Assembly: GCA_029706075.1 (NCBI GenBank)
Contig: JAINUG010000198.1
Coordinates: forward strand, 1,102,501 to 1,166,500
Reading direction: 5' to 3'
Source of the DNA: Aldrovandia affinis
Lineage: Eukaryota; Chordata; Actinopteri; Notacanthiformes; Halosauridae
Length of the DNA: 64,000 bases
In this document: piece after piece, positions 44,443 through 59,912 of the stretch
Position numbering within the stretch: the stretch's first letter is position 1
How the letters are laid out: each line of letters starts with the position of its first letter
Made by a program: the position numbers and the translations under genes
Notes under the pieces: model-generated
The model's database searches: none
Told to the model about the DNA's origin: nothing
What the model saw: only the letters and a program-made list of their open reading frames with translations

Positions 44443-44744
44443 GTATTCCATACATTTTGTCCAGGTTATAACCATCATGCTGGCGTGAACGGCGCAACAC
44501 AAATGTCCTTTTGTACTTTTGTACTACTTTGTAGGAGCCATGTCTTTCTTTCTCTCTTTCTCTCTCCCTCTCTCAAACTCCCTGTATTACCATGATTAAT
44601 TGTTGTAAATCCCAAAAGAGATTAGTAAAACTGAGCTGAGGATGAATAATGCAGTCTCACTGGTAGCATGCCATGGGTTCTGCTGTCACAGGATTAATTC
44701 ACTGCTGGGGGGGGGGGGGATGAACGGAGGTTTGTTTGACCAGT
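44443..44744. other. Unassigned DNA
   Basis: A TC-rich run at 44545-44575 and a G-run at about 44707-44719; otherwise nothing recognised. Confidence 0.4.
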
Positions 44745-44950
44745 GCCGTTTTACCAGAGGGGTAGGTCTGCTGCGGGCTTCAAACCATGGCCCTTTGCCA
44801 GCCACTCCACATGACAATAGATATGATTAGCCCGCCGAGCTAAAGACCAAGGTCACCAGCCAAGGGAACCAATCACACTCTTATTGCTTCTCCAGGGGCA
44901 GACGCCGCGTTCCGAAGCGGACTGTTCACGTCTCTGAACTCTGCTACATC
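44745..44950 (-). mobile_element. Diverged solo LTR of the tRNA-box TRIM family
   Basis: The layout matches the LTRs at 59519-59908: on the minus strand an A box (TAGCTCGGCGGG, 44831-44842) and a B-like box (GGTTTGAAGCCC, 44775-44786), with aaccaatcacactcttattg in the place where the others have aactaatcacactcttatcg, and a ggactgttcacg word in the place of ggacgctcacg. Ends not certain. Confidence 0.55.
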
Positions 44951-46544: not shown

Positions 46545-46733
46545 TGTAGCGGTGAAGCTCCGGTACGTGGGGTTAACACGTGAGCGTCCGCTACAGAATG
46601 TGACGTCGATAAGAGTGTGATTAGTTCCCAGAGTTAGGGGCTTGAGTCTTTAGCTCAGCGGGCTAAATCCCTAGCTTGTCATGTCGAGATCCTCGGTTTG
46701 AAACTCGCTGCAGGCAGAACCAACTCCGATACA
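46545..46733 (+). mobile_element. Solo LTR of the tRNA-box TRIM family, plus strand
   Basis: It aligns end to end with the LTRs of the 59519 element: tgtagcggtgaagctccggt start, cacgtgagcgtccgctacag, ataagagtgtgattagttcc, and an end at gataca. The A box tagctcagcggg is at 46651-46662 and the B box ggtttgaaactc at 46695-46706, 44 bp apart start to start as in a tRNA gene. No primer site follows, so it is a solo LTR. Flanks caaa and caga match at 3 of 4. Confidence 0.75.
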
Positions 46734-46757
46734 CAGACACAGCCACACCTGCATGGG

Positions 46758-46945
46758 TGTAATGGAGGCTAGGTCTACTGCAAGCTTTTGATCCACAGCC
46801 CTCCCCGGCCACAACGTGTAACGAGAGATAACCCTAGCCCGTTGTGCTAAAGATCAAAGGGCCCCTGTCAGGGGAACTAATCACAGTCTTATTGAGGCCC
46901 AGGGGGGTGACGTCCCCTTCAGGAGCGGACGTTCACGTGCCACAC
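46758..46945 (-). mobile_element. Diverged solo LTR of the same family, minus strand
   Basis: It starts tgtaatgga, then has tctactgcaagcttttgatc, agcccgttgtgctaaagatc, aactaatcacagtcttattg and ggagcggacgttcacgt in the same order as the LTR at 59519-59687. It lies head-to-head with the + copy just upstream. Confidence 0.6.
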
Positions 46946-47714
46946 ATCTCTGAGCTCAAGGACAAGGAGGAGGGGATAGCGGTTGAGGGCATGGAGCGTG
47001 TGATTTGAAAGCAGGAGAGCCTCTTGTTAGCTCCTGATTTCTCATTGCGTTTGAAGAAAATTCCGAACTGTAAACATAAATGTTCTTGACCTTTGACCTT
47101 TCTCGGATTCCTTTGCGCATCTTTTTCAAAGAAGATGTCTTTACGGGTAAATATAAATGGCAAGGGTTAGAATTTGTTGCAATGTGAGTTATTCTACAAG
47201 AAGAAGATGTGAATGCTTTAGAGAAAAATCATGGTTAGAGAACAGGTCTTCCCATGGACATGATGGAAACACTTCTCCTCGCTCATAAAATTAATTAGGG
47301 GGCTAATTAGGGGAATGACATGAGGAATTAGCCAGCTGTAACTGCTGACATTTTCAATTATTTTGTGCTCCCCCTTTTCTGGCTGCGAATATCACACACA
47401 TCTCGAGGCAGCTGTCGAACCAGAAGTGGGCATGTGGACAGCCCAAACTCTTACGGGTATCTTATTGTTTTACATCTTCCTTTTATTGCCTTTTGATTCA
47501 TAGAGCCGTGAAATTCCATCCTGTTGGTTGCAGCGTTTCGCTTGACCGGCTTTCAATCGATCAACGTCTGTCCTGGATTTAGTCAAAAGTTGATTGAATC
47601 CTGGTCATGGTCCTATTGTCTAAGCGGGTGTGTTTTCATATTGCAAGTGCTCATATTATCTTTAGCACTTACCCCTCAGAGGTGACTGACCGTTTAGGAT
47701 AGCCCATTCCTCTT
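46946..47714. other. Noncoding block with candidate enhancer motifs
   Basis: Little repeat character. A FOX-type and DR1 motif pair (separate entry) is followed at 47285-47375 by several homeodomain-type cores (taattaggg twice, gaattagcc, caattatt) and cagctg. This composition is usual for vertebrate conserved enhancers; whether it is conserved cannot be seen from one sequence. Confidence 0.35.
47070..47099. promoter_or_regulatory. FOX site plus perfect DR1 nuclear-receptor site
   Basis: gtaaaca (47070-47076) is the known FOX core. tgacctttgacct (47087-47099) is, on the minus strand, AGGTCAAAGGTCA, a perfect DR1 of the HNF4/RXR/COUP-TF type. They lie ten bases apart. Confidence 0.4.
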
Positions 47715-59316: not shown

Positions 59317-59475
59317 ATAATAATATAATATACGCCATTTAGCAGACGCTTTTATACAAAGCAACTTACAGTAGTGAATGCATACATTTTCAGTATATGT
59401 GGACCCAGTGGGGATTGAACCCACAACCTAAGCGTTGCCAACGCTGTGCTCTACCAACTGAGCCACAGAGAACCA
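59317..59475 (-). repeat. SINE family B, minus strand, full length
   Basis: Same order as at 57050: atatacgccatttagcagac, acttacagtagtgaatgcat, tggggattgaacccacaacc, gctctaccaactgagccaca. Confidence 0.9.
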
Positions 59476-59518
59476 CACTATAATAGATGCTCTAATGGCA
59501 AACCTGATGTTGAACGTG

Positions 59519-59687
59519 TGTAACGGAGTTTGTTCTGCCTGCAGTGAGTTTCGAACCGAGGATCTCAATGCGACGCGATTTAGCCCACTGAGCTAAAGAC
59601 TCAAGTCTCTAACTCTGGGAACTAATCACACTCTTATCGACGTCACATTCTGTAGCGGACGCTCACGTACCAGAACACACCCGCTCA
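59519..59687 (-). repeat. 3' LTR of the TRIM
   Basis: Minus-strand ends TGAGCGGG...CCGTTACA. A box TAGCTCAGTGGG at 59584-59595, B box GGTTCGAAACTC at 59546-59557. Keeps the cgtccgctacagaatgtgac segment also present at 46545-46733 but lost from the 5' LTR. Confidence 0.85.
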
Positions 59688-59749
59688 ATTCTCCCCCCCG
59701 AATCTCCTGGGCAGCAACCACAGCCCGACCGATTACCATCAGTTGTAGG

Positions 59750-59767
59750 ATCCGAGTCACAGCACCA
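59750..59767 (-). promoter_or_regulatory. tRNA-His-type primer-binding site of the TRIM
   Basis: Minus-strand TGGTGCTGTGACTCGGAT, one mismatch from TGGTGCCGTGACTCGGAT, the site known for tRNA-His-primed elements. It lies one base from the LTR end. Confidence 0.85.
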
Positions 59768-59768
59768 A

Positions 59769-59908
59769 TGTAACGGTGGCTGGTTCTGCCCCCAGTGAGT
59801 TTCAAACCGAGGATCTCGATGCGACAAGAGAGCGATTTAGCCCACTGAGCTAAAGACTCAAGTCTCTAACTCTGGGAACTTATCACTAACCAGAGCACAC
59901 CTGCTACA
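59769..59908 (-). repeat. 5' LTR of the TRIM
   Basis: Minus-strand ends TGTAGCAGG...CCGTTACA. A box TAGCTCAGTGGG at 59841-59852, B box GGTTTGAAACTC at 59797-59808, 44 bp start to start as in a true tRNA gene. Confidence 0.85.
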
Positions 59909-59912
59909 CGTG

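Follow-up and report, generated by a model that had tools for sequence, protein, structure and literature searches.

A Helenus-type miniature LTR retrotransposon of Aldrovandia affinis and hybrid loci that point to a candidate Ty3/gypsy helper

Results

The window analyzed here, a 64-kb stretch of Aldrovandia affinis DNA (64,000 nucleotides of contig JAINUG010000198.1), harbors a miniature LTR element at positions 59519–59908, as a first-pass annotation had proposed, and its sense strand is the minus strand. In sense order, the element consists of a 5′ LTR (59908–59769), one T, a primer-binding site (PBS), an interior ending in the polypurine tract (PPT) GGGGGGGAGAA and a 3′ LTR (59688–59519), and an exact CGTG target-site duplication is read directly on its left (59515–59518) and right (59909–59912). 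The interior (59689–59768, minus strand) is an 80-bp noncoding stretch, 87.7% identical to that of copy L006. Its PBS (59750–59767, minus strand), TGGTGCTGTGACTCGGAT, is 18 nt long and of the tRNA-His type, and the PPT (59689–59699, minus strand) adjoins the 3′ LTR, a position that matches other printed copies. The 3′ LTR (170 bp, delimited by blastn) is 88.5% identical to the L006 LTR over 174 columns and is 6 bp short between its boxes relative to other copies; comparison with the copies reveals that the 5′ LTR (140 bp) is without ~37 bp (LTR positions ~21–57). Each LTR carries an A box and a B box in the sense orientation, as claimed at first sight: TAGCTCAGTGG (59842–59852) and GGTTTGAAACT (59798–59808) at a distance of 44 bp in the 5′ LTR, and TAGCTCAGTGG (59585–59595) and GGTTCGAAACT (59547–59557) at a distance of 38 bp in the 3′ LTR, all on the minus strand. 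Because the ~37 bp absent from this 5′ LTR are present in other copies, the 390 bp originally given for the element hold for the window copy and not as its full size, which is ~435 bp in undamaged copies (177-bp LTR, 81-bp interior, 177-bp LTR). The window copy is old and damaged.

The same window contains a second copy of this family (F1), a single LTR whose variant form has an insert of 13 columns close to the beginning (46545–46733, plus strand), as well as two single-LTR relatives with approximate ends, the diverged sister family F2 (44726–44948, minus strand) and a third, LTR-like stretch, F3 (46739–46993, minus strand). Positions 44726–44946 of F2 used as query give at least 42 genome matches including itself, the others being 75–89% identical (40 of 1374 candidates scored). 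F1, F2 and F3 have three blocks in common, ACGTGA-C-GTCCGCT, ATAAGA-TGTGATT-GTTCCC and TCTTTAGC...GGGCTA, the last of which is the A box; the B box is kept in F2 and absent from F3. A tRNA-headed SINE with a UnaL2-type tail lies ~50 bp to the left of the window element (59329–59382 and 59405–59468), with scores of 45.3 bits for the tRNA head and 63.7 bits for the tail.

To place the window element in the context of its genome, we searched the whole assembly with it and obtained at least 45 matches (40 scored of 3368 first-look candidates), 44 of which run from query position 1–3 to at least 366; alignment of the copies recovered members organized as LTR-PBS-interior-PPT-LTR with 4-bp duplications. 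A 38-base LTR core, allowing ≤3 mismatches, occurs at 1536 genome places (reversed control, 0). After 11 duplicates were dropped and L004 and L007, both inside L040, were excluded, 65 distinct interiors were retained, and both outer LTR ends are reached in 47 of these. The sample is not random, since copies were chosen for their likeness to the window copy or to its interior, and the proportions reported here need not hold family-wide. An exact 4-bp duplication flanks 32 of the 46 copies with enough flanking sequence, and because seven of the 46 are internal to tandem arrays, the duplication rate is 32/39 (slid control, 6/920). The LTR boundaries are real, and the 4-bp duplications are of the integrase type. 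The 32 empty sites reveal a palindromic target preference with the common palindrome TG/CATG/CA (T 21, G 21, C 18, A 14, T 16, G 16, C 21, and A 18 of 32). LTR pairs differ by up to 13.6% and are identical in 12 of 47 copies, eight of them outside arrays and seven of those eight with a duplication; one tandem array, at C2099 (L040), contains six LTRs. The family has been recently active in this genome.

The first-pass annotation knew of no named animal family of this kind, a view that does not stand, since Helenus already covers such elements. Helenus is defined as TRIMs with tRNA-derived sequence in the LTR, 311–1263 bp in size and hosted by fish, coelacanth, wasps, bivalves, and others (Kojima 2024, PMC10886601). 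Animal members are described there as making 4-bp duplications, vertebrate members as primed by tRNA-His, -Leu, or -Lys, and fish members as aligned to tRNA-Val; zebrafish LTR-11_DR, with 5575 LTRs and 2618 interiors, forms tandem arrays (PMC10886601). Helenus is also mentioned in a 2026 meeting report. The window family has two LTRs, a PBS and a PPT within this size range (~435 bp), sense A and B boxes in the LTR (48 of 108 LTR rows by a strict test, 102 of 108 by a relaxed test and none antisense), the 4-bp duplications just described and a PBS of the His type. It is a member of Helenus, assigned by these published features rather than by a sequence match to LTR-11_DR, and therefore belongs to a kind already in print. 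It resembles the fish branch that includes LTR-11_DR in its TRIM size, A and B boxes, tRNA-His primer, 4-bp duplications, high LTR copy number, and arrays. The plant TRIM Cassandra likewise has a Pol III-type promoter in the LTR and tandem arrays (PMC7215508), but its promoter is that of 5S rRNA, for which the LTRs examined here give no match at E ≤ 10. Ajax of nemerteans shares the TRIMp3 layout but is 5S-derived with 5-bp duplications (Kojima 2024, PMC10886601). A tRNA SINE would have a covariance-model tRNA head, a LINE-type tail, and no LTRs, which is not the make-up of the window element.

With respect to the primer, the 17 of 18 matches to tRNA-His first noted for the window PBS hold against the CCTCGG type, which we take to be the human type and used as reference, and fall to 16 of 18 against the tRNA-His genes of this genome. 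Across the 65 interiors, the PBS matches the CCTCGG type exactly in 41 and with one mismatch in 13 (54/65 with 0–1 mismatch), compared with four exact and 43 one-mismatch cases against the genes of this genome. We located tRNA-His at 13 places in the genome, 11 of them clean and of the CCCCGG type, two degenerate, and none of the CCTCGG type; ARAGORN called tRNA-His at all three of the places submitted. The host genes thus mismatch the usual PBS by one base, which counts against the explanation that we favor below. One Helenus copy, L073:1318–1722, has a PBS that extends into the T arm and anticodon stem of tRNA-His, with 39 nt of antisense tRNA-His instead of 18 (37/39 like the genes of this genome, with CCA added), and looks as if the primer had been copied beyond its usual stop. 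A 22-mer with a CCTCGG-type end has its single genome occurrence in L073.

The tRNA-like promoter was scored in 108 LTR rows, which count array-shared LTRs twice and come to 93 once identical rows of one locus are removed. The strict test allows ≤1 mismatch in the A box and ≤2 in the B box relative to the general boxes, and the relaxed test allows two and three. The remaining 60 of 108 rows, including the L006 LTR, fail the strict test, and in the window element, only the 3′ LTR pair passes. Dinucleotide shuffles contain a strict pair in 24/2000 cases for the window element and 6/2000 for the L006 LTR; pairs of this quality are nevertheless not uncommon in this DNA, the 64-kb window containing 14 strict pairs on both strands, among them those of a tRNA gene, two SINE-like stretches, the F2 LTR, and the window element. 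No Rfam tRNA match was obtained over any LTR examined, and the tRNA likeness of these LTRs is confined to the boxes. Selection on the boxes was considered and rejected, since their per-column conservation over the 108 rows is no higher than elsewhere in the LTR (0.949 versus 0.956 for other LTR columns outside CpG; permutation value 0.66). A TTTT run is found in 2/108 LTR rows and 4/65 interiors; therefore, a Pol III transcript would usually enter the flank, a read-through that LTR strand transfer may tolerate. On these sequence features, the LTRs carry a putative tRNA-like A/B-box promoter, and its use by Pol III is plausible. Experimental validation of Pol III use in Helenus is still awaited according to Kojima (PMC10886601).

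A credible but less probable alternative is that Pol II transcribes this TRIM, as it does conventional LTR elements, and that the boxes are remnants of an old SINE insertion and no longer important. The lack of extra conservation in the box columns fits this reading, as does an upstream block, ATAAGAGTGTGATTAGTTCCC, whose conservation equals or exceeds that of the boxes when five LTRs of three related families are aligned. A TATA-like TATAAG that precedes the A box by ~40 bp in L006 and in copies resembling it points the same way, although at its first position the most frequent letter accounts for only 52% of rows. However, AATAAA or ATTAAA occurs in 0/108 LTR rows, although AATAAA is present close to the end of two other LTRs introduced below: it lies 85 nt from the end of LTR_X and, in LTR_Y, 117 nt ahead of the PBS. 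Also against a Pol II origin of the transcripts, the box pairs are found in the sense direction only, 46 of the 48 strict pairs are spaced by 44–46 bp, and the A-box block is kept across F1, F2, and F3.

In the hunt for a helper, a PBS followed by G or T was found at 126 places, of which 20 loci were read (L074–L093). All except L092 contain the Helenus interior (19/20), and foreign 5′ sides were seen at L086, L087, L081, and L091; L091 was rejected as a hybrid, as its foreign 5′ side is single-copy flank. At L086 and L087 (C225), a 629-bp stretch with AATAAA replaces the Helenus LTR upstream of the PBS, and this stretch is the end of a longer LTR, LTR_X (1043 bp at C1101). With 40 of 76 candidates scored, LTR_X was found in direct pairs at a spacing of ~7.65 kb at C158, C902 (three copies in succession), C1113, and C1825. 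The LTR_X PBS, TGGTGCCGTGAC, follows the LTR and one T, an arrangement as in Helenus; in the coding copies L116, L120, L122, and L135, LTR_X is followed by T and TGGTGCCGTGACTTTCGG, that is, by 12 nt of the tRNA-His site. At C1825 and C1101, AGGAGGGGTGAA precedes LTR_X. Duplications of 4 bp flank the copies at C1825 (CTTA) and C1796 (CTGG), and the copy at C1113 has none. The interior harbors reverse transcriptase (RT), RNase H, and integrase, the last with H2C2 and rve domains; for gag and protease, the matches stay under the Pfam cut-offs. The RT is most like Ty3, with best solved-structure matches to 4ol8, presumably Ty3, and 7q5b, named Ty3-G. By these predicted domains, the LTR_X element is a Ty3/gypsy element. 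At C2286 (L127, L148), an LTR_X-type LTR terminates 37 bp ahead of a Helenus copy that belongs to the hybrid-forming subfamily and was read there across the first LTR, the interior, and the beginning of the second LTR.

An exact-pattern search for junctions returned 28 places: 11 from LTR_X to gypsy, 13 from Helenus to Helenus, three from LTR_X to Helenus (twice at C225 and once at C1101), and one from Helenus to gypsy (C1101). These counts are lower bounds because Helenus is represented in the pattern by a single subfamily, the one with an LTR ending in AGACCGG. At C1101, of which two ends and four inner pieces were read, the order is GTAG, Helenus LTR, PBS, gypsy interior (6633 bp), LTR_X, a second PBS, Helenus interior, Helenus LTR, and GTAG; the two outer Helenus LTRs (180 bp) are identical to each other, and the 4-bp duplication is exact. 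The second PBS, GACCCGGAT, is of the host's own tRNA-His type. Compared with the C225 interior, the C1101 pieces reach 99% identity in RT and 100% in integrase. The Helenus parts of the two loci differ at 6/257 aligned positions plus three gap columns, and the junctions read TTACA/TCGG versus TCACA/CCGG; thus, C225 and C1101 are probably separate events. The chimera-forming subfamily has the LTR end ACCAAGACCGGTTACA, which is not the window copy's own, a further point against the explanation favored below; its last bases, AGACCGGTTACA, share 11/12 with the LTR_X end, AGACCGGTCACA, whereas the window copy and most printed copies end CTCCGTTACA.

At C225, L096 (C225:1796350–1806300) has a gypsy interior flanked by the LTR_X-PBS-Helenus end as an inverted repeat, identical over 832 bp within L096 and over 888 bp between L086 and L087. 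The 5′ side of L081 is another repeated LTR, LTR_Y, with 49 matches. In all of the best eight of these (L081 and L157–L163), LTR_Y is followed by a PBS of the His type, the Helenus interior, and a Helenus LTR, the latter at least in part; therefore, a Helenus-carrying recombinant has itself amplified. Three of the eight LTR_Y reads (L081, L157, and L163) reach a common continuation. A further locus, L164 (C2056:3057500–3057900), has an LTR_Y-type end, the PBS GACCCGGAT, a Helenus LTR, a PBS, and a Helenus LTR, with unusually short interiors. C225 and LTR_Y show joining at the PBS similar to that at C1101.

Discussion

Taken as a whole, the window element is probably best explained as an old copy of a Helenus-type TRIM that is transcribed by Pol III and moved by the LTR_X gypsy element or a relative. 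Pol III would start a short RNA in the 5′ LTR, ~12–20 nt ahead of the A box, and continue across the interior as far as the 3′ LTR or a T run in the flank, so that the RNA would carry the repeated R needed for strand transfer. The LTR_X gypsy element, or a relative, would then package this RNA; reverse transcription would be primed by tRNA-His, and the integrase of the helper would insert the product. At C1101, the plus-strand strong-stop DNAs of two co-packaged templates would each have annealed to the PBS of the other, and the resulting two-genome cDNA would have been integrated once. We lean, with some reserve, toward this model in its specific form, in which a tRNA-His-primed Ty3/gypsy element co-packages and moves Helenus RNA, composites of the C1101 type are heterodimer cDNAs formed by reciprocal strong-stop transfer, the shared PBS serves as the ticket into the particle, and LTR_Y-type recombinants amplify. 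Co-packaging with such a helper is the likeliest reading of C1101, and it does not account for the inverted end at C225.

It is also conceivable, though we think it unlikely, that the composites were formed in the chromosome, where a one-LTR gypsy circle would have recombined with a resident Helenus copy via the shared PBS region. LTR elements commonly give rise to such one-LTR circles as a side product. Such recombination would yield the identical order of parts, the GTAG duplication would then be the resident copy's own, and the C1101 PBS GACCCGGAT is already found in some Helenus copies of that subfamily. However, the exact homology at the C1101 crossover, ACATTGGTGCCGTGAC, spans ~16 bp, which is short for homologous exchange and the right size for plus-strand transfer, and joins centered on the PBS are seen repeatedly (C225, C1101, and the LTR_Y family). 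That Helenus arose as a simple internal-deletion derivative of a larger element is very improbable: the LTR tips (TGTA-C-GGTG ... ACA) and PBS start are common to LTR_X and Helenus, but LTR_X is ~1.04 kb long, shows no A/B pair in either of the two parts checked for one and otherwise does not resemble the 177-bp Helenus LTR, and the sole composite seen with outer Helenus LTRs (C1101) keeps LTR_X inside. Finally, two tRNA-derived SINEs side by side, with PBS and PPT by chance, are refuted despite tRNA-like boxes in both units and a genuine SINE nearby, as the LTR-interior-LTR unit recurs at numerous sites, where 4-bp duplications lie beyond both of its LTRs, the interior is conserved, and the window LTRs give no tRNA match where that SINE scores 45 bits; the genome copies thereby uphold the TRIM anatomy originally described.

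Returning to co-packaging by a tRNA-His-primed helper, in the Helenus paper a Gypsy helper was inferred from PBS likeness (Kojima, PMC10886601), whereas the hybrids described here point to one element. LTR-sharing tandem insertions of BARE1 and Cassandra in plants, for which recombination or template switching has been proposed, are described there as consisting of units of one family (PMC7215508), whereas the hybrids of this genome couple a TRIM with a coding element of another family. We found no earlier report of Helenus-helper hybrids among the papers listed by our literature searches.

The idea of a vertebrate TRIM with a tRNA-type promoter has been in print since 2024 and is not new. The contribution of this genome is a concrete candidate helper, together with hybrid loci for testing. 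The joining of these hybrids at a shared tRNA-His PBS suggests that Helenus depends on its helper through the PBS and primer, and if co-packaging is true, LTR_Y would be evidence that recombinants can amplify in their own right.
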